NCBI GenBank assembly: GCA_020055645.1
Contig: CM034547.1
Coordinates: 65,383,884-65,447,883 of the forward strand
Reading direction: 5' to 3'
From: Tomocerus qinae
Taxonomy: Eukaryota > Arthropoda > Collembola > Entomobryomorpha > Tomoceridae
Length of the DNA: 64,000 bases
Position 1 is the stretch's first letter; each line of letters opens with the position of its first letter. Positions 25,060 through 63,256 of the stretch are shown here, one piece after another. The translations under genes and the position numbers were made by a program. The notes beneath the pieces are model-generated. The model did no database searches. It was not told the DNA's origin and was given only the letters and a program-made list of their open reading frames with translations.

Positions 25060-25518
25060 CTAACCTTTATTTTGATACAGCAACTGATTTTCCAAATGTT
25101 CAGCTTTTAAAGTTCCAACTAGAGATTCACAATTTTCGTTAAAGACGGAATAGGCACTAATCTCCCCTTTCCGTTTTCCACTTGTTCGTGTGTTATAATA
25201 AATCATAAACAAAGAAGACACAATGAAATACACAGCCCCAAACCCTATTTTGACACAGCCGATGTATAGCAGAAGCCAAATTAAAATCTTAGATCCCAGT
25301 AAGATATACTTCAATTTTTTGACAGAAGGATCCTCAACTTCAATTACATTTTCTTCCTCTTCTGGGCTGGGCTCAGCATGGGGTTCCGGAAGTGGCAGTA
25401 CAGCTCTGGAAAGTATATTACAGATCCATGACCACCACTCTTGCAGCTTAGCCTCCCTTGCTAATTTATCTTGTTCATTCTTCTTTTTACGACGAAATTT
25501 TTCCAGTTCAGCTTCCAT
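25060..25518 (-). CDS. SAYSD1: SAYSvFN domain-containing protein 1 (last coding exon carries the whole predicted protein)
   Basis: The C-terminus contains the diagnostic SAYSVFNENCESLVGTL followed by KAEHLENQLL, matching the human SAYSVFNPGCEAIQGTL-TAEQLERELQ pattern. A hydrophobic segment (KILIWLLLYIGCVKIGFGAV) fits the membrane segment of this ER membrane protein, which in mammals binds UFM1-modified ribosomes and helps clear stalled translocons. I start at the Met giving MEAELEKFRRKKK, which resembles the vertebrate start MEQRLAEFRAARK, for 152 aa. The frame stays open upstream to 25602, but an acceptor (TTTTGTATAG, exon from 25544) suggests that part is intron, so either the ATG at 25518 is the start or a short upstream exon contributes a few residues. 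Confidence 0.85.
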   Translation of the reverse strand: MEAELEKFRRKKKNEQDKLAREAKLQEWWSWICNILSRAVLPLPEPHAEPSPEEEENVIEVEDPSVKKLKYILLGSKILIWLLLYIGCVKIGFGAVYFIVSSLFMIYYNTRTSGKRKGEISAYSVFNENCESLVGTLKAEHLENQLLYQNKG

Positions 25519-25544
25519 TTCTGATATGGAATCGGCTGTGCTAC

Positions 25545-26228
25545 CTATACAAAAATGAATATCATTGTTACATAACACTAAAAGTTGAACCTTTATACGC
25601 ATAAAAACGAATTTTTTATTTCATGAACACATTACACGAACACCGCTGCATAAGAGTAGGATCTTTCATCTCTTAAACAGTACAAATTGATATAATGTTG
25701 CATACAGACTTTTTCCTTCAAAGGAGAAAGTCGTAAATTATTACGATTGTTTAATCAGTATAGCTTTCTCCAATTACTCCTAAATTCGCAATTATCGTGT
25801 AATGTTTAAAAACTCTTTGGTAAAGCGAAAGATCGCTTTATTTTTTGTAATACATGCATTGATGGTTTAAAACTAAAGCTAATCTACTGATTTTGAAGTG
25901 GATAATATTGCTGATGAAATGAAATGTAATGCAATTTAAGTCAATGTTTTAACAACCTTAAAATGGTAGTCTGAACTGAAGTTTAGCCAAGTTGACATTG
26001 TTTGTCGAGAGCGTAAAAAAATAATCCATTCTATCGAAATGCCCTACTAAATCTAAATGATTCTTCTACAAGTTCGGTAGTAGCATAAAACCAAATTCTT
26101 TACCTTACCTAAGAAACCTTACCGATTTTGCCAAATATTAAGGCAAAATATTTGATTGATTTTCTACCTAGGTGTACAGTAAATGTTGCTATCAGTTCTT
26201 GGCATAATAATATATTGCTTGCTTAACA
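25545..26228 (-). other. SAYSD1 5' side and EXT1 3' UTR
   Basis: No additional gene is seen. The region must hold the SAYSD1 promoter and 5' UTR and the EXT1 3' end. TTTATT near 25835 (AATAAA on the minus strand) is a candidate EXT1 poly(A) signal. No long T tract follows the EXT1 stop, so there is no visible genomic poly(A) tail of the kind a recent retrocopy would leave. Confidence 0.35.
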
Positions 26229-28502
26229 CTAGAGTTCAATCTGTCGGTACTTTTTTCGCATATTACTAACAGGATCACGAAACAAGACAGGATCTAAACG
26301 AAGATTAGATCTGGTAAGAGATATTGAGCCGTATATATCAGATAACTCGTTCAGACAATTATGGCGTTGTTTAAAATGTTCAGGATCGTTCCACGATGAT
26401 CGACTAGTCGAATCTTTTGCACTTCTTTTTGAAGTTAGCTTAATTGGAGGTTTTCTCGTAATTCGTGTTGCTAAAAGATTCAGTAAAATATCTTCACAGT
26501 TCTGGAGCGACTCAACAAGAACTTGTGCAGCCGGCGGAACTTTCTCCCAATACAGATGGTTATAGTAAACATGATAGACAGCTCCCCCGGCGAGAACTAG
26601 ACTGTAGTCGTTCGTCCACTTTGAACTGTACCTCCAAAGTTCTTTAGGGTCATCCCAATAATGAGATCTAGTTTGGTATCCAACAATTCGGTCCGGAAAT
26701 GATCTCCAAGTAGTGTATGCGAAATCTAACTCATCCGTACTGAGAACAACATCTTCATCTAATGAGAAAACGGCTTCCGTCTCGATTTCATCGTCAGTGA
26801 TAAATCTTTGAGAAATTGATTTAAAAGAACTGCGTTTTATTGTTAAAGGGACAGGAACCTCTGGCCATATTTTAGGAATCGCTCTCCCACTGTCCCAGAC
26901 AATTAATATTTTTGATATGAAACGACTTTTCCCAGCATTCCTTACTAATCTGAAGAGAGGAGAATTAGAGTAGCTGCTTAAGCTCGATGATTTCAAACCA
27001 TTCATTCCGGGCTGAACGTAGATGACAGCAGTAAAGTTTTCGCGTAAATATTTTCCTTTCCCGTCATGGTGAAAGGGGAAACGGTTTATATCATCTGCAT
27101 AATCTATCTGAAAACTAAGAGCTCCTGGGGCTGTATTCCAAGTTGTTCCATCACGCCAAGTATAGCGCTTAATTCTGTCTCTGACGACTTCGAAAGTAGT
27201 TTCTATAATTTTCTCCACTGACGAAAGATATTGATTGTATATAATTTGTGTCTGCTGCTTAAGAGCGAATATTTGGGCCACACTGACTGATCTTACAGTC
27301 TCCAGAATTTGTAATAGATTTCTCTCATCGCCCATTATGGTTGCAGCTTTCCAATCTATTACCTCTGAGAACGGAAGTATCCAGCTGTTAGATAATAACA
27401 CTGGTATACATCCCGCTTTGAGTGACTCCAGAAATCGAAAAGATCCTAAACGCCTCCCACGTGGCACTAAGCAAAACGTTGAATTCAGCAGAAGAGTCTC
27501 ATAATCATAGCGATCGTAGATATTGTTGTCTTCATCGCACCTTTCATCTTTCATGTCTTTCCAGTTTTTACCATGCTTACAAGTCGTGACCATAATTATA
27601 TCGTTGCCATTATGTAAGTGGTATACAGAATTTCTTGTTTCGGATCCAATCCCATATACGTAACGCTTCCCTTTGAAAGCAATTAAATGTCGCTTATGAG
27701 CAGGGAATTCATTCGAAAGACCAGTGCCAAGATCATCTCCTTTGCCAGGATGAGATGGATGGAATAATGGAATTGATATGTCAAAATTAGGACGGTAGTT
27801 TTCCACAGACATTGAAGCTTTAGCCAATATTGCTTTTCCGACATTGAATCCCAAATCTGTTTCGCTGTAATTAGGCCACGTTCCAGCATATAAGTTGAAT
27901 ATTATGTGGTTTTCCCCGTTGTTCCAGTACTGTAATTTCTGCAACCGGCTTGGAATGTTTCTCACAAAGTTGTGTGACAGTTCGTCTCTTTCTAACGTGT
28001 CAATACTTAAAACAAACAAACAAGCTTGGGAAGCTTCGCTAGTATAGTAATTAGACAATTTTAGCCGTTCTATTATTTTCTCGTATGTACTGCTCGTTGG
28101 GACAAACTTGTCCATAGGATATACATAAACCTTAAAACTTTGCTTCTGACATTTTTTAAAATTAAAACATGTCTCCATTTGACAATTTTTTGAATATTCA
28201 AAGTTTAAATTCGGTGACTGTGAATGGGGAACAGGATCAAACAATTCTTCAGCATTTTGAAATTTATTTATCTTACTGCCGAATGCATCATGTTGCAGAA
28301 AATAATTTGTAGTCAAATCTTCAACTGTGAGATATGACGGTGCTGATGAGAGCAGATTTTCAAACGTTAACGAACTGTTAATATCGGAATTCGAAGACAA
28401 TTTTGGGGGTCTTGTATTCAACTGCCATACATATACCGCTACTACTAGAATGGATAATATGAAACAGTATTTCACAGACTTAAAAGTTCGAATGCCGTAC
28501 AT
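26229..28502 (-). CDS. EXT1: Exostosin-1 / tout-velu, heparan-sulfate co-polymerase, intronless
   Basis: EXT1 with EXT2 forms the Golgi heterodimer that polymerises heparan sulfate by alternating GlcA and GlcNAc addition; Drosophila tout-velu is needed for Hedgehog spread. The single open frame codes for 757 aa (human 746). It has a short cytosolic tail, a signal anchor at about residues 12-28 (FILSILVVAVYVW), an exostosin GT47 domain (CFNFKKCQ, SQACLFVLSIDTLERD, NHIIFNLYAGTWP, STFCLVPRGRRLGSFRFLES) and a C-terminal GT64 domain with the DxD-type motif in VFSLDEDVVLS, then SKWTNDYSLVL and NCEDILLNLL. The end …RLDPVLFRDPVSNMRKKYR matches EXT1 (RLDPVLFKDQVSILRKKYR) better than EXT2 or EXTL proteins. 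The whole coding region lacks introns, unlike all neighbours and unlike vertebrate EXT1. It is in tandem with SAYSD1. Confidence 0.95.
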   Translation of the reverse strand: MYGIRTFKSVKYCFILSILVVAVYVWQLNTRPPKLSSNSDINSSLTFENLLSSAPSYLTVEDLTTNYFLQHDAFGSKINKFQNAEELFDPVPHSQSPNLNFEYSKNCQMETCFNFKKCQKQSFKVYVYPMDKFVPTSSTYEKIIERLKLSNYYTSEASQACLFVLSIDTLERDELSHNFVRNIPSRLQKLQYWNNGENHIIFNLYAGTWPNYSETDLGFNVGKAILAKASMSVENYRPNFDISIPLFHPSHPGKGDDLGTGLSNEFPAHKRHLIAFKGKRYVYGIGSETRNSVYHLHNGNDIIMVTTCKHGKNWKDMKDERCDEDNNIYDRYDYETLLLNSTFCLVPRGRRLGSFRFLESLKAGCIPVLLSNSWILPFSEVIDWKAATIMGDERNLLQILETVRSVSVAQIFALKQQTQIIYNQYLSSVEKIIETTFEVVRDRIKRYTWRDGTTWNTAPGALSFQIDYADDINRFPFHHDGKGKYLRENFTAVIYVQPGMNGLKSSSLSSYSNSPLFRLVRNAGKSRFISKILIVWDSGRAIPKIWPEVPVPLTIKRSSFKSISQRFITDDEIETEAVFSLDEDVVLSTDELDFAYTTWRSFPDRIVGYQTRSHYWDDPKELWRYSSKWTNDYSLVLAGGAVYHVYYNHLYWEKVPPAAQVLVESLQNCEDILLNLLATRITRKPPIKLTSKRSAKDSTSRSSWNDPEHFKQRHNCLNELSDIYGSISLTRSNLRLDPVLFRDPVSNMRKKYRQIEL

Positions 28503-31500
28503 TTTTGCTTCTGGTTGCAGATTTGCACCTCCTTCTCCTACCTAAGTACTAGATAAGTACTAGTCCTTAAAAGCCCTCAGTATGTAAAGTATATTTATCA
28601 ACGAACTAACAAATTCCGTACTTAGCCAAAGACAATAAAAATCTATTAGATTTACATACTAATCATTAACGAAACTGAACTTGACTTTATATTATATAAC
28701 TTACAGTCTAGGCTTGGACACAACCAAAGGTAATCACAAAGCACGCAATAGTCAGCGAACAAATAAACCTCGCTAAATGTCACAACCACTATAGATGTTT
28801 GTAACTTGTATTTTAAATTTTTTACTAAAATTATAATCTACTTATTAGGAAGAGAATTTAGGTTGCACTATTAATGGATTATCTCGACAATTTGAATCGA
28901 CAAATATGTAGCTCTTAGCAGTAGTCTCAGTTTATAAAATGTAGAATTACACCTGCTGTCTGCACTGATGGACCTGGAAAAATAGAATAAATGAATCACA
29001 AAAACTGTACAAAGCATTCCTACCATAATAGTTGTACTTGCAGGAAAATTAAAAGAAAGTTGTTTTTCCTTATGTAATGTTATTACTGTATTACTACTTT
29101 CACTAAAAAGAAAGTCTTTTTAGATTATTTAATACGAACATGGAATAATTCAGAATGTTTGAAAATATGTAGCTGTAAATAGCTGTTTTCCCTGCTATAT
29201 TTCATTTCCTTTGTAGGATTTACAGTCCCTAAACATTGATACTTTCAATAGGAATTTATAAATATTCATTTTGTACAGTTTAAAAAAATCAATTCGCGAC
29301 CGTCGCTTCTTATAAGAAACGAGAAATTCTTCTGTTTCTTTTGATACATTAAACTCTTTACAGTGACCACTAATCAAAGAAAAGACTTTCTTTTTGTTCT
29401 TTTATTACTTCAGTATGATTCCAATAATACATTGACTTTCTCCACAAATTGCTTATTTGTTTAGCTTGGTTTATATTTACACACCTCTTTAAAGGAAGGA
29501 TTTTAGAAGTTCCAAACAACAGAATATATTATTCACTCACCAAAATTGTTTTTACTATATTATTGAAAGTTTTTAATTTTATAATGTAAACACATATAAT
29601 GTTAAATGTGGGCTGTATGTGTACTTAAAGTGGATATAGCTATCGTCATAAAACTGTCTTAGCTATATACCTCAGACACCAAAAGGTTTAAAATGAGTGC
29701 GCGTTGAGCTTATACTCTAGCGTTCACCCGTTTACCCTTTTGAGTTAGCCGATACTGTACGTATCTTTAGGAATAGAAAAACTTTTGAAAATTATACAAA
29801 TACCGTATTTACAAGAACTATTTTTATCTCCGTTCAACCATTTTGAAATAAGATCCATATTTAACAGTTTATTGCATTACTAAAAATTCTGAATTATAAA
29901 GACTAAACAGTGGAATGGTCTTAATTTATGGCTCAAGTTTGCTTTATGTTTAGATTTAAGCTGCGACATCTTGATAATGGCTACGCTTCATCTTCGCCAT
30001 CGGCTTCAATTAGCGTTGTGCTTTTGTTTCTCATTAGACTAAGGTTACGCAATAGACATTTTCTTCATCGTAGTAATGAAATAGAGCTGAGATCGTTGAA
30101 AAAGACAACAGATTTTCGACCTGATTGTGATTGTAACTATATTTATTCCGGCAACTTTGTTTGACTAATAAATGGGCTTTTGATTGACACTGAGTTCACT
30201 GTTTTACTTTTATGTAAACATATAGATAAGTCACCTCATATCATATGATAGTTCATAAATAATCATATATGAAACTTTCATCACATGACGAATTTAAATC
30301 ATTATTGCTTTCGGACCCGAAGGTCATCATAAATATTTAAAACTTAGGATGACTCTTCACATAATACTTTACATACAGTACAGTTAGTTAGATATGTGAT
30401 TTAATCAATGGAAAATGAAATTAATTTTGGTCATATACTCTAGAATATATGAAGCTCCGCGTATCTTTCAATGTAAACGAGAGAAAACTTTTCTGTTTAC
30501 GCACCTAATGAAATTGAATGACATTTCTAGCATTCCTTTGCGTCTCATGTGGTTTTAATTATTGTCAGTTTTCTTGAAAAAAACTCATATTTTTATAGTA
30601 GTAAAGTAGTTAAAGTGGTTTCAACTCATTATCCACATTCTTTCTCATTATCACCATATTTAGCAATGTTAGCAACTTTCGGAAGTACGATAGTAAATCC
30701 GTATGGGGTCTAAAACGCTACCTAATTAGTTTATTGATAATAATTTGCTTCACTAATAAGTATTTCTTGTTTATTGCTCTAATTTCCTAACTCGCTCGGC
30801 TTTCTCTCTAAAGGTTGTGAAAATATGCTAAAATCTCACGTTGGTTTCCCTTCAGTTGCGTTTCGCGTAGAAATTCTTTCCTCATTCACAATCACAAGTA
30901 AACTATCTCAGTAGTGCTGTACAAGATTGTATGTATGAGTATGGACTCCAGCCAGACAAACATCATACTACATTTACATTACTACTACCCTACTATTACA
31001 CTACTGCATACCATCCGCGATGCGTACGACCACGACATGCGCCAGTCACTGGTGTATACAATGTTCGTATAAAGTAACGTTTCATTTGCTTTTCTACAAG
31101 GAAATGATAATTTAATTTTTATAACTCCATTAAATACTTTCTCATGTAAAGTATGACGTGGTGAAAGTCATATGGCTTTCACATGGGAAAGTTTTATGAA
31201 GTGTTTAGGCTTACACGGTAAAGGTCATATGAAGCGTTACTTTGTATGTATCATGTAATATGTAACCAAACCCAGCCAGAAAGCCAGACATATGTATAGA
31301 TAATAGTTAAATACTATGCACTATACATATTACATTGCATAATACATATTATATGTTTGGTAACCTTCACTATTCCATACTAACAATGAGAGGTTACCAC
31401 TCCAAACTCCAAACCACGCGGGCAGTTAGCCACTAAAGGGCTCGAATAGGCATTGCCCCCATGAAAAACAAATTTGATGCATGCTTTCCAATAAATTCGG

Positions 31501-33356: not shown

Positions 33357-35666
<2,310 letters not shown>

Positions 35667-55816: not shown

Positions 55817-58767
55817 ATGCTCAAAATCAAGAAAGGGATCAAGAAGAAAATCAAAGGGAAGAAGGACAAAGGGAAAGAGGATCTCTTTGATCCAGAGCAG
55901 TTGGCAAAATTTAAGAAAGAGCTCGAAGAAGGGAGAAAGTCGGCAGTTCAAGGAGACACAGACGACCCGGACCACACCCACCCCACATCCGAAGCGCACG
56001 CTGATCACGAACAAGACGAAGAGTGGTTAAAGTTTCAACAACTTACCTCTGGTGTAGATGATATCCTTAAGAAAACCACTGGGGATCTCGATCGAATAAA
56101 ATCCAGCAGTTATTTTCAAAGGACTTCTAAGGCAAACGAACAATTTGCAAGTGAGCGTCCTAGCTCTTCGACCCATTCAAATGTTCACGAGGAAGCTGCA
56201 CCGTCGTCTTCCAAGAAAGATTCTCAATGGATAGGATTTGAAAAGAAACACCGAGAAGAGCACGAAAGTGAATCAGAACCTGAAGCCTCTCATCAAGTAA
56301 GTTAACAAAGAGAATATTTATAATCATTTTAGTGCTTTTTAAACTAAGAGCGGGAATGTGACATGAAATTCTTTTTTTACAGGAGGAAGTTGAAAACGCA
56401 ACCGAAGCAGAACCTGAGTCTACACTAAAGGAATTTGAAATCCCTGAAGAGGACCCCGTTTTAGACGACTCTTTATTTGACACGACATTTGTGGATGCTG
56501 TTGCTTCTGGTGAAATTAAATTAGCTTACATTCCTGAGAGTCCCACTGCTGAACCAGACGAAGAGGACCCATTTGACACATCCGCTGTTGCCGATGTAGT
56601 GAAAAAGATCGAAGAAGACGAAAAGAAAAGAAAGAAGCAAGTCAATCTTGGCACAGCAGTTGATTTTCTTACAAATAAGACAGATAGAGTTGAAAAGTCC
56701 CCAGTTGGGTTCGATGGAATAAAGAAGCCACGACCGCGTCCACATAATATAAATCTTATAGGAAGTTTTGACGACGATACACTCCCCGTGGTAGCTCCTA
56801 CTGATGCACCAGTAGAACGAGCAAAAGACTTATTTGATGAAATTCTCGATTCTCCTCCTAAAGACACATCAACATCTCTTTTAGATGAGGCAGGAAATAT
56901 TTGTTTGACCACATCACCACTCCCACCACAAAACAAGACCGGTGAGAAAGACGATCGTTCTCAACTCAAAGATTTGTTAAGTGAATTTGATGTTATTAGT
57001 GATGTGACTGTTGATGAGGGACTCTTTTCATTAAAACTTGGCACTGCACCGGAAGAAGAAGAGGAAGAAGATGAGTTCGCATTGTTAGCTGCAGAATCTC
57101 TACACAAAGAAGTTACACCAGTAAATCCCGGGAAAGCAGCCCCACCCAAACCACCACCACCATCTCGACCACCTACTGCGGTAGTACCATTAGAAACCGA
57201 GGGTGAGGAGGAGCCTATTGAAGACGAGGAAGATCCCTTTGATACAACTTTCGTAGAGAAAATACAACCAGGAAAAGGAGAGTTGAAGATAATTGAAAGT
57301 GAACTCTTAGGGGGTGCTAAAGACAGTAATACTGGTGTTGATGAAAATGACGATGATGATTTCGATTTCAATCCTCGTTTGGGAGAACCAGTTAATATTC
57401 CAGTAACACAAATAAGCCCTGTTCCTGTTACACAAACAGATCTGCTAGATACCACTGACGGAGAACATTCTAAAGGTGCAGTTATCCAACCAGTGAGTGA
57501 GTTAGTGCCAATAGAGTCTGATCACGATCCGTTTGATACTTCCATTGTAGAAACAGTCCTTCCTGGGAAGGCTGAACTCAAGCTTCTCGAGGAAGAATTA
57601 TCTAATATCGAAGGGCAGGCTCCTGGAATTGTTTTATCTGCTGCTGCCACTGCAATTATAAATACTCCTGCGGTCACAGATCCGTTTGATGATGATTTTG
57701 CAGACTTTGATCCTAGAGCTGATGAAGTGAAACCAGAGCCTTTACATCCGTTGGATTTACTGCACGAAGATTCTACCTGTACTAAAGTATTGACTCCTGT
57801 TACTGGCAGTCCTGAGGAGGAGATTGATCCTTTCGATACTTCTATTGTAACTGATAATATTCTTCCAGGAAAAGTTGAGTTAAGATTGCTAGAGAGTGAG
57901 TTAATAAGTGCAGCACCGATTATTCCATTCTCTAGTGCACCTGTAACCCTAAATTCGAATCAAGTAATTGATATTGCACCGCCGACTCTACACAGACAAA
58001 TTTCTGATCCAGAATTCGACCCCCGGGATGGAGAGGAGGCTCCCGTTTTAATAGAAACAGACAACACACCTCGCGATGTATTTGAATCTCACGAAGTACT
58101 TACTTGTGAAAAACCTTTGACTCCTTCAATAGGAGAGAAACAAATAGTCCAGCCAGAAGTAACGGATTTTGTTGACCCATTTGATACGTCTGCTATTGAA
58201 ATCGACAATATAAATAAGGTGGACTTAAAACTGTTGGAAGGGGAATTACTTAACTCAACAGTGGACGTAGCTCCGGCTAGACCTTTACCACAGTTTGTTG
58301 TTGCGGTAGAACCCAAAAAGCCAATTTCTCCACCGGCAGTATCTCCCGTTCCTGTTCCGCATCTTCTAGAAACAGATCATTTGAGTGAAGAAGGAGTTGA
58401 TCTTGCTAAACCTTTAACACCCTCCGAGGTAGACGAACTGGGAAGGCCTTCTGTGTTTGAAGATCCTTTTGATACATCAATAGTCGAATCAAAAGCTGTC
58501 CCTGGGAAAACTGAACTGAAAATATTAGAGGAGGAATTAGACGTTGAACCTGGTCTTAAAAGGAGTGTGACTGATCCTGATTTCAATCCTAGAGAATCAA
58601 TACACCCATCTGCTGAACTCTCTTGCCAACCTTTGATTCCACAAGTACAAGGTGGGAGCACCGCTTCAGCTGAAATTTACGAAGACGATCCATTTGATAC
58701 TTCTCACGCAGAGGCACTAATACCAAGCAAGGCAGAATTAAAAATTCTTGAAGCCGAATTGCTATAA
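55817..58767 (+). CDS. stnA: Stoned A, first cistron of the stoned locus
   Basis: Stoned A is a presynaptic protein needed for synaptic-vesicle recycling; in Drosophila it is made from the same dicistronic mRNA as Stoned B. Two exons, 55817-56296 and 56383-58767, give 954 aa. The basic N-terminus MLKIKKGIKKKIKGKKDKGK resembles my memory of fly StnA (MLKLPKGLKKK…). The body is acidic and dominated by a repeated cassette DPFDTS-x(5-8)-PGKxELKxLExEL (clear copies near 57230, 57525, 57827, 58176, 58464 and 58686, plus degenerate ones near 56470 and 56570). Between these sit FNPR/FDPR blocks. DPF motifs bind the AP-2 alpha ear. Apart from the start, no methionine occurs in the protein. The stop TAA is 51 bp from the Stoned B ATG and in the same frame. 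Confidence 0.92.
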
Positions 58768-58818
58768 TTGCTATATATTTTCTCACATATAAATAAACAT
58801 TCAATAAATTCGAAAACT
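58768..58818 (+). promoter_or_regulatory. stnA-stnB intercistronic spacer
   Basis: These 51 bases are about 20% GC, against clearly higher GC in both flanking coding regions. They contain no ATG and no AG, so no splice acceptor can lie here. They hold two AATAAA hexamers (58792-58797 and 58803-58808). The frame shared by StnA and StnB stays open through all 17 codons. The StnB ATG has A at -3 and G at +4, a strong context; the StnA ATG has A at -3 but C at +4. Confidence 0.8.
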
Positions 58819-61800
58819 ATGGCAGATTTCACGATTGGAGCTGCAAAGGGATTTAATCCTTTTCTCTCTGAAACGGACTATGCTCCTCCCCCAGTAGAGC
58901 CAACTTATTCCACGGAAGCGCAAATGTCTAATCCTTTCCTACAAAGCTTTGCACCCGAACCTGTCGAGGTACAGCCGAGTGGCGGGGGAGAAAATCCATT
59001 TCTCAGTTACTCAGCGTCTTCTTATGACTATGGACAGGAATCTGTTCTCCCTGCACCTGCTGCTGCCCCCTCAAATGCCAACAATCCGTTTGCAGACTTT
59101 GCAATCGGAGAAAGCACCAGTAATGCTTTCTCGGCTTTCCAGGATACAGCGCCCAGTACCTCAGCAAATAATGGACCATTTGCGATGGACTGGTCTACGA
59201 ACGCTCCCGTCAGTGCTCCCTTTCCTCCTCAACATGAAATGCCAGATTTGATGAGTAGCAGCTTTATGGACAGCATGCCTCCGGATATGTTAGATATGGC
59301 TGGAGAAAGCCCGATGCGACCTCCTCCACCATCCGTGCCACAATCCACTCAAGACCTTCTGGATACAGTCACAGGAGCATTGGAGGCTACATCAGATAGC
59401 CTATTGGACAGACTGAGGGTGACACAACCTAGTCCCATTCCTCTGGCACCATCGCCAAGTCCTTCACCGCGCTCTCCATCTCCAGATCTACTGCTAGGAG
59501 ACGACCATCCCCCGCCCCCACCTCCTTCAGCAAATCCACTCAACCCATCACCTCACCAACTTGACTCCATTATTGATCTGTTTGATTCCTCACCGCAGCA
59601 GTCTTCAACAGGTCATAAATCATCTTTGGAAATTCTTGGTTTGTACAACAATGTCTCACAAGCTGCACCACAACCACAACGCCCATCTGCACCAGTAATT
59701 ATTCCAACTCAAGCCGAGCCAACAGAAACACAGCCGACAATTGAAGATATTCCGGAGCCAAAACTTATCGAGCCAGTGAAGGAGACAGCGCAGAGTTATT
59801 TGGAATCAGTAACAAGTCCTCCGCAGCCTGCTTCTCCATCTTTAGTATTAAGTCCCGAGGCAATGGTGATTACCGAATCGATAATAGAAGTAAACAAGGA
59901 AGAGCCGGTTCAAAAAGTAATTCCGGAAGTACCCAAAGATTTACCTCTTGCGAAAGAGCCGGAGATGCCGAAACCGAAGGCAACACCTCCAGGAAGACCA
60001 AAGCCGCCTCCAGCTCCACAGAGATCGCCAGTGGTTGAAGCAAAGCATCCTTTGCCTAGTCGACCACCACCACCTGTTCCACCTGCTCCCAGAATTCCAG
60101 CTCAACCACATCATCCACCACCGCCGGTCCCACCTGCACCAGTTGTGCAAACAAAACCAACACCTTCACCTGTATTTGCTGCTCCTGAGCCACCTCGATC
60201 ATCATCCGCATCTCCTTATGATCCATTCAGCAATTCTGCTGCATTTGCTCCACCAGTTCCTCCGCAGCCAACTCAGACAAGTGAACCAAAACCAAGTCAG
60301 TTATTTAATGACATTTTTGCTCCTGCAGCTCCAGCGCCAACTCCTGTTCCTGTTGTAAACACAGCTCCTGCCGCTGCTGATGCATTTGATGAATTCGAAG
60401 CAAAATTCAACAGTGTGACTGAAGGGGAAGCGGTCAAGGATTCAGATCCTTTTGGTATGCCCGCAGTTAAAGTTACAGGCAACGATTCGGGTAAGTTCTT
60501 GCAAATTGTACGATAATAAACAAGCTAATTCATTACAAACCCTCCATAGATGACTCAAAAACGAATATTGCAGCTTGGGGAAGTGGCGATGCTGGAGCTG
60601 GTAGTGGATTTGAAGACTCGTCCCTGGGATTTGGAAACGAACAAGGATTTGACCCATTCTTGTCCATGACGGAACCTCCACCTGTTCCACAGAGCACACC
60701 GGCCAAAAGTCGGACATCGGAATCCAATGATGAATATGACAGAGAAGAGGCTGATTTGTCCATTTTCATTAGGTATTAATTCAACTTTCGATTCTATCTT
60801 TTATGTTGTGTTTAAATTAAAATTCAAAGTCTAAAAATATTATATTACATGGCAATATTAGACCGAAAAGTAGCAACGACAATGAATTGGGATTTGGACT
60901 AGCACCAGCATTAGCCCCACCTCCCAAAAGTCCAGCAATTTCTACGGGATCGGCTTTCAGCGAAGAAACAAATGCATTCGTTCCATTCTTAAGTTCAGCC
61001 CATGATACAACTTACGCCGAAGCTGCCCAGAAAACTCAAATGAATCGGACCGATTCCCAAGAAACTCCTCAGACACCGTTGTTCGAAGAGGACACATCTC
61101 AGCCTTTAGAAGACTTCCCCAGAACTACATACACTGGAGATGGGTGGGAGATGCATATGAGACATCCGAATAAAAAGAAAATCACAGGTCAGCGATTCTG
61201 GAAAAAGATATATGTACGACTTGCTGTTCAGAATGAAGTTCCTGTTGTTCAGTTATATAATAACAAAACGGACAAGGATCCTTTCCAAGAGATTCCATTG
61301 CAGCCCTGCTACTCCGTGTCTGATATCGGTAATTGCTCTGGGATTTCACTTTACTGTTTATGGAATGTTGCTTTCTTTTTCTCATTGTCTCAATTTTTCT
61401 ATTTACTCAGGTGCTCAGCAATTCGACAATTATGGGAAGATTTTTACAGTGAAATTGCAATACGTGTTCTACAAAGAGAGGCCTGGAGTGCGTCCCGGAC
61501 AAATTACAAAAGCTGAAAGAATTACTAACAAATTATCCCAATTTGCTGCTTATGCCATCCAAGGAGATTATCAACATGTTAAAGAGTTTGGTAGCGACTT
61601 GAAAAAATTGGGTCTTCCCGTTGAACACGCTCCACAGGTGCTTAAACCAAGTCCTAAAGCTAAATTATGAAGTTGCAATAAATGTCATGTTTTTGCTTGA
61701 CCATTTCTAAACCTAAATACAATCTACGAAGTTGTAATAAATATGTCATGTTTTGCTTGTTGCTAGATTTCTCAACTAGTAAAATTGGGTACTCAAACAT

Positions 61801-63256
61801 TTGAAGAGCTAAAGCAGTTCAGTTGTGCAATCGAGGAGTGTCTCTTCAAAATGGTGGTACATCGAGATAGAGCCATACAGTATAAGACAGAAGAGGTTCA
61901 AGTGACACTCGTTGATGAGTATTATGTGGAGCAAGATATTTATGGAGTAGTCACAAAGCAAATCGCTCGTGTTCGGCTATACTTCCTGTCATTTTTGTCG
62001 GGCATTGCCGAAGTGGAAATGGGAATCAATGATCTCCGAAGACAAGGAAAGGAAGTGGTGGGGCGTCATGATATCATCCCGATTGCAACGGAAGAGTGGA
62101 TTCGTATTGAGGATATTGAATTCAGCAATTGTGTTCAACTGGATGAATTCGAAAATACAAAGACGATAAAGTAGGTCTAGTATTTAGACAAAATATTATT
62201 GCATATTACTATAGAACTGATTTATGAAAGACGCTATAAAATTCTAGGGTTGCCCATTAGAATCTAACAACTATTTTGCTTTCAGATTTAAGCCTCCGGA
62301 TGCTTGCTATATTGAATTGATTAGATTCAGAGTTCGTCCTCCGAAACACAGAGAGTTGCCTCTTCAAATCAAAACTGTTTTTACGACTACAGGGAATAGA
62401 GTTGAGATCCGGTGTGATGTGCTGGTACCCGGATTCACGAGTCGTAAACTAGGACAAATACCCTGTGAGGATGTTATGATTCGCTTTCCCATCCCTGAGT
62501 GCTGGATTTATATGTTTCGAGTGGAGAAACATTTTCGTTATGGCTCTGTAAAGTCTGCACATCGGAGGTATGCCTTTTACGCAAATTGAGGATATAATAT
62601 TAGTACCTACTCCAGAATCGTTTACTCCAGTTTCATTGCCTTGCTAACAAACTCCTTTTCTTGATTGAATCACATAGGAGTGGCAAAGTAAAAGGGATCG
62701 AAAGATTCCTCGGCGCTGTAGAAACAGTTGAACAAAGTCTGATGGAAGTTACTTCTGGTCAAGCCAAATATGAACATCAGCACAAAGCTATAGTGTGGCG
62801 GATTGCTCGTCTACCCAAAGATGGGCAAGGTAAGTACTGCAATATTTACTCTATTACTCTATTTGTTAAGTTTATTGAATATTTAACCCAAAAAATGTTA
62901 CAGGGGCTTACACACAGCATTCATTCTTCTGCCACATAACCCTACAAGCACATGAAGAAGTACCAGATAACTTGTCCAAATATTGCTATGTCGAATTTAC
63001 GATGCCTCACACGACCATTTCACACACGGTTTGCAGATCAATTTCTGTGCCCACAAGCGAAGAACCTCCTGAAAAATGTGTACGCTATTTGTCAAGACAC
63101 GAGTATATCGTTGAAATCGAGCACACACAAGGTATAACTCCAGCAACGTATAGTTTGGCTGCTGCTGTTCCTGTGAAAGAAGAGCCTGAGCCCGAGCCTC
63201 CAGCTCCTGAAAAGCCGGCGGAGACCAAAGATTCTGATTCAGACTTTTCAGATTAG
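58819..63256 (+). CDS. stnB: Stoned B / stonin, endocytic adaptor with mu-homology domain
   Basis: StnB is the fly-type stonin: it binds synaptotagmin through its C-terminal mu-homology domain and Eps15/intersectin EH domains through NPF motifs, sorting synaptotagmin into clathrin vesicles. Eight exons join in phase: 58819-60490, 60550-60772, 60862-61328, 61411-61637, 61767-62170, 62286-62567, 62678-62829 and 62904-63256, giving 1259 aa. Four NPF motifs lie at about residues 13, 38, 59 and 89. A long Pro-rich region follows (to about 540), with PPPPVPPAP-type SH3 ligands. The stonin-homology part starts near YTGDGWEMHMRHPNKKK, and the mu-homology domain runs from about residue 860 (CAIEECLFKM, VTLVDEYYVEQD, GRHDIIPIATEEWIRIEDIE) to about 1210. 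The tail is acidic (DSDSDFSD). A possible poly(A) signal is AATAAA at 63743. Confidence 0.95.

Follow-up and report, generated by a model that had tools for sequence, protein, structure and literature searches.

Absence of in-frame AUG codons and signs of out-of-frame AUG depletion in the first cistron of the stoned locus of Tomocerus qinae

Introduction

The absence of in-frame AUG codons from the first cistron of stoned, a gene of the nerve terminal that encodes two proteins, has been known in Drosophila since 2005. As cited in three later papers (PMC11892635, PMC3372440, PMC4528330), the original work on the fly locus reported a first cistron without any in-frame AUG (Wall, Phillips and Kelly 2005, J Biol Chem 280:27670), and for both fly stoned and snapin, reporter work is described in which translation of the second ORF is attenuated by in-frame AUGs (PMC3372440). 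The first ORFs of these two loci are also reported to be deficient in internal AUGs and to have start contexts that deviate from the consensus, which has been read as leaky scanning (PMC11892635), and the work on fly stoned has been cited as a case of resumption of scanning (PMC4528330). The latter paper also states that most fly dicistronic pairs fail the requirements of a scanning mechanism, which counts against scanning at the locus described here. A negative relation between the length of an ORF and reinitiation is documented (PMC11892635). For StnA of the fly, descriptions give a Lys-rich N terminus, a coiled coil, and a set of four DPF-containing C-terminal repeats (PMC3373503).

Here, we describe a further copy of such a first cistron from the collembolan Tomocerus qinae. 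The whole stretch of DNA analysed (the window) comprises 64,000 nucleotides.

Results

Judged by its predicted proteins, the region 55817-63256 is the stoned locus, with stnA followed by stnB on one strand. It consists of the following features:

55817..56296, plus strand: stnA exon 1, with the initiator ATG and a Lys-rich N terminus; open translation, donor GTAAGT, layout as published for fly StnA
56297..56382, plus strand: stnA intron, 86 nt, GT-AG
56383..58767 (stop included), plus strand: stnA exon 2, with eight DPFD motifs and zero in-frame ATG
58079..58818, plus strand: stretch without ATG in any frame, 740 nt, comprising the 3'-terminal 689 nt of stnA plus the 51-nt spacer
58768..58818, plus strand: intercistronic spacer, 51 nt, AT-rich, in frame with both ORFs, without stop, with two AATAAA
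58819..63256, plus strand: stnB, 8 exons, 1259 aa, 23 Met, mu-homology domain

The stnA coding sequence spans 2865 nt over the two exons, with the frame intact and one terminal stop, and encodes 954 aa. Six of the eight DPFD motifs head a DPFDT...K-x-E/D-L-K/R...E-x-E-L unit. StnA has a Lys-rich N terminus followed by C-terminal DPF-bearing repeats, as compared with the description of fly StnA and not by alignment; a Pfam search returned nothing above the cut-off for this protein. The eight-exon model of stnB holds the frame across all joins up to a single terminal stop, and its exon 5 matches the adaptor medium-subunit family (Pfam Adap_comp_sub, E 9.8e-12). An stnB-type ORF with a mu-homology domain is thus present 3' of stnA, as is characteristic of the stoned locus. 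No relatives of StnA exon 2 were found in virus contigs, and none of StnB exon 5 in virus or prokaryote contigs.

The two cistrons lie on one strand, only 51 nt apart, and stnA and stnB very probably share one mRNA. Readthrough of the StnA TAA (58765-58821) would yield a StnA-StnB fusion; the in-frame, stop-free spacer may be due to chance. The two AATAAA motifs (58792-58797 and 58803-58808) are located just 5' of the StnB start and could permit a polyadenylated mRNA for StnA only, or merely reflect AT richness.

Four frames from the window served as controls: StnB, an exostosin-like protein, and two open frames (476 and 289 codons) delimited by stop codons, with neither splice models nor a Pfam match. 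The location of the exostosin-like gene is as follows:

26229-28541, minus strand: exostosin-like gene, single open frame with GT47 and GT64 domains, used as control

The exostosin-like gene is adjoined by a gene for a SAYSvFN-domain protein (25060-25620, minus strand). An exon with a PH domain is found at 33530-34066 (plus strand), which by eye we take to resemble an Akt-type kinase.

Joining both stnA exons confirmed the initial annotation in that StnA, with its 954 residues, contains no Met other than the initiator. ATG occurs at 0 of 953 internal codons, and stnA thus shows the lack of in-frame AUG that marks the first cistron of stoned. From the position-specific base frequencies of stnA, 9.2 internal ATGs are expected (P0 9.8e-5). 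A second estimate, based on 52 AT* codons and the G-ending share of the other NT* codons (30/186), gives 8.4 (P0 1.1e-4). Removing the DPFD stretches (eight stretches of 27 residues, each counted from a DPFD motif and the last one clipped by the protein end) leaves 738 codons, for which 6.2 or 5.6 ATGs are expected (P0 0.0020 or 0.0024). The four pooled control frames, with 45 Met per 502 Ile, Leu, and Val, predict 18.1 Met in StnA; because these controls differ in composition and two of them are uncertain gene models, the first two estimates are preferred. The 15-20 Met initially expected are therefore too high a figure: the composition of stnA brings the expectation down to about 8-9, yet leaves the zero unexplained.

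It is very improbable that StnA is free of Met from composition alone, i.e. merely as a disordered, acidic, and repeat-rich protein. While 309 of the 953 residues are Glu, Asp, or Pro, there is also little Cys (4), Tyr (3), or Trp (2), and the exostosin-like control has just 1.06% Met, the residues Ile, Leu, and Val are plentiful in StnA (202), and StnB exon 1, which is Pro-rich by eye, carries 12 internal Met in 556 codons. Moreover, a depletion of out-of-frame ATGs at fixed protein sequence, as described below, is beyond the reach of this explanation. Composition alone, named at the outset as a null model that could refute the proposal, was rejected for the in-frame count (P0 about 1e-4, or 0.002 without the repeat stretches). 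The proposal that in-frame AUGs are selected against in this cistron of stoned is supported, in line with the fly report as rendered by the papers citing it (Wall et al. 2005).

The initial annotation regarded out-of-frame ATGs as common and the constraint as acting on in-frame codons only, and suggested a codon-shuffled null for both. A synonymous shuffle with the protein fixed preserves in-frame ATGs and is hence unable to test their number, but it does test the other frames, and there a deficit was found in stnA. Out of frame, stnA contains 22 ATGs, 21 at offset +1 and one at +2, compared to means of 28.2 and 2.8 in 5000 synonymous shuffles (P<= 0.0048 and 0.11; the +2 count is not significant by itself). 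The total of 22 stands against 31.0 expected (P<= 0.0005, 2000 shuffles). Essentially the same was seen with a plain shuffle (mean 31.0, P<= 0.0020, 3000 shuffles), with shuffling within six blocks (mean 29.9, P<= 0.0017, 3000 shuffles), and with codon-junction dinucleotides held nearly fixed (mean 31.0), where 22 was reached by 0 of 1500 shuffles. The NAY codons of StnA end in T in 21 of 47 cases before G, versus 67 of 95 where another base follows (Fisher p 0.0035); an opposite, non-significant tendency is seen for NTY, NCN, and four-fold NGN codons. AUGs are thus fewer than expected in every frame before ORF 2 (0 in frame; 22 versus about 31 out of frame), as would be predicted for leaky scanning. 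The description of out-of-frame ATGs as common holds literally, with 22 remaining, but they are fewer than predicted by protein and codon usage. Besides the in-frame zero, there are signs that out-of-frame ATGs are depleted in stnA, i.e. partly purged, and a constraint on in-frame codons only finds no support in these tests.

The total out-of-frame deficit was not significant in any of the four control frames, with 41 observed versus 39 expected for StnB, 34 versus 33 for the exostosin-like control, and 7 versus 9 (P<= 0.17) and 8 versus 6.5 for the two open frames. With junctions preserved, StnB gave 41 versus 44.8 (P<= 0.12). Its NAY codons lean in the reverse direction to those of StnA (T in 40 of 49 cases when G follows, in 70 of 114 otherwise; p 0.011), and the corresponding odds ratios for the remaining controls come to 1.44, 0.93, and 1.2. 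Single-frame deviations were observed in StnB too, where ATG(+1) is in excess (40 versus 33.4, P>= 0.0098) and ATG(+2) is low (1 versus 5.7, P<= 0.0036). The shuffle null is therefore inexact and all P values are approximate, especially those near 0.005. The same inexactness shows in +2-frame stops, which fall short of the expected number in StnA and StnB as well as in the exostosin-like control. A further point against the depletion reading is that, among 128 trinucleotide-by-frame counts of StnA, ATG(+1) ranks only third lowest (z -2.86), after GTA(+1) and TAA(+2).

All 22 out-of-frame ATGs open frames that stop at 21 codons or fewer. The longest such ORF (21 codons) compares with a shuffle average of 62-70 (P<= 0.0006 in one run; 0.0007, 0/3000, and 0.0007 in three others), and the mean length of 9.5 codons with 15-17 under the null (P<= 0.0048, 0.0033, 0.0007, and 0.0020 in four runs). 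The final ATG of stnA is located at 58076-58078, at a distance of 692 nt to the end of the coding sequence (P>= 0.0014, 0.0010, 0.0003, and 0.0027 over four shuffle runs); these ORF and ATG-run statistics were picked after the positions had been seen, are not independent of each other, and come from one gene. StnB and the exostosin-like control agree with their nulls for both the longest and the mean out-of-frame ORF. The latter control has an ATG-free end of 344 nt (P 0.03-0.10), so one such run can be due to chance. The first 241 nt after the StnA start codon are also without ATG (P>= 0.021). Stops in the +1 frame of stnA number 67 versus 59, 58, and 63.5 expected (P>= 0.028, 0.010, and 0.14), a weak surplus that is not relied upon. 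A pyrimidine at -3 precedes 14 of the 22 out-of-frame ATGs, compared to about 12 expected from the composition of codon position 2, and weak contexts were therefore set aside as evidence.

The ATG-free stretch adjoins StnB and could be the 5' leader of a separate StnB mRNA, arising from a promoter or splice acceptor within the 3' portion of the stnA sequence. Seven acceptor-like sites (at least 12 of 20 pyrimidines) are present in 58060-58818, the best of which ends at 58369 with 16 of 20 pyrimidines; the spacer 58768..58818 contains zero AG. Acceptor-like sequences are common in coding DNA. We consider a separate mRNA unlikely, since it leaves unexplained both the lack of in-frame ATGs and the short out-of-frame ORFs over the first three quarters of stnA. 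As an observation in its own right, the pyrimidine-rich tract at 58347-58369 is followed by TAG and resembles a splice acceptor; if it were used, the StnB leader would be AUG-free from there.

Alternatively, StnB could be translated via an IRES or by termination-reinitiation across the 51-nt spacer, with the lack of AUGs in stnA being incidental. The spacer is indeed short and AUG-free, and post-termination 40S subunits are described as being able to travel short distances and reinitiate (PMC11892635). But neither route requires a 2.9-kb ORF free of AUGs, and the output of the second cistron in the fly is reportedly lowered by an in-frame AUG (PMC11892635, PMC3372440), which makes this explanation quite unlikely. 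Folding gave no sign of a structured IRES near the StnB start, as the surrounding 301 nt do no better than their shuffles (z -0.27).

Discussion

The explanation that we favor, and regard as probable, is that stnA and stnB are dicistronic, that 40S subunits scan through stnA to reach StnB, and that AUGs were removed from stnA by the cost of trapping them. StnB would be translated by subunits crossing the 2.9-kb stnA ORF through leaky scanning and some reinitiation. An in-frame AUG would be the worst case, capturing a subunit into a long ORF with poor reinitiation at StnB afterward; because such an AUG would trap ribosomes before StnB, Met codons would have been removed from StnA even at the protein level. 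Out-of-frame AUGs would be cheaper, as they open ORFs of no more than 21 codons after which the subunit may resume scanning, and they would have been thinned by synonymous choice, not abolished. Close to StnB, where the least distance is left to recover, AUGs would be absent from every frame.

If StnB is reached by scanning, selection would be expected to favor just such features: fewer out-of-frame ATGs, shorter out-of-frame ORFs, and a longer ATG-free 3' end. The pattern had initially been held against simple leaky scanning, a conclusion that is not supported. It had also been proposed that ribosomes reach the StnB start in the frame of StnA, but 40S subunits do not scan in any particular frame, which leaves this proposal without a mechanism.

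Two points run counter to simple leaky scanning. The bases around the StnA start codon are A at -3, T at -1, and C at +4; measured against the insect consensus, a start with A at -3 would not plainly be weak or skippable. In addition, if scanning were purely linear, many ribosomes would be lost at the 22 remaining AUGs, 8 of which have a purine at -3.

We tentatively suggest that stnA might be a graded scanning corridor of 2.9 kb, with in-frame AUGs removed from the protein, out-of-frame AUGs thinned by synonymous choice and the survivors limited to ORFs no longer than 21 codons, and the last 740 nt before StnB AUG-free; in this specific form, the idea is possible and somewhat doubtful. If true, the gradation would be a record of what a trapped scanning ribosome costs in a long ORF relative to a short one, and stoned would represent an unusually long route of leaky scanning and reinitiation for an animal cellular gene. 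Besides contributing another copy of the fly result, the locus allows a yes/no observation on in-frame AUGs to become a quantitative pattern over three frames. Genomes of many insects would allow this pattern to be tested, which could tell scanning apart from an IRES or a separate mRNA ahead of any experiment. A depletion of AUGs in all frames of stnA was not noticed among the matches listed in our literature search, which left most subscription papers outside its reach; the 2005 paper may treat it.

The closest described systems are the dicistronic stoned (stnA-stnB) and Snapin transcripts of D. melanogaster, which, as cited by later papers, share with the present locus a first cistron without in-frame AUG. 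Fly stoned encodes the same two proteins, including a StnA with a Lys-rich N terminus and DPF repeats, four in the descriptions of the fly protein compared to eight DPFD motifs here. In addition, stnA of T. qinae shows the out-of-frame deficit and the short out-of-frame ORFs, features that the 2005 fly paper may also cover. A second parallel is provided by green algal bicistronic loci, for which leaky scanning is described (PMC11892635). These loci belong to another lineage and encode other proteins, stnA being 2865 nt long, and their ORF 1 starts favor weak contexts, in contrast to the A at -3 of the stnA start. As in stnA, initiation codons are underrepresented before ORF 2 of the algal loci, and there the reintroduction of an in-frame AUG cuts the output of ORF 2 (PMC11892635).
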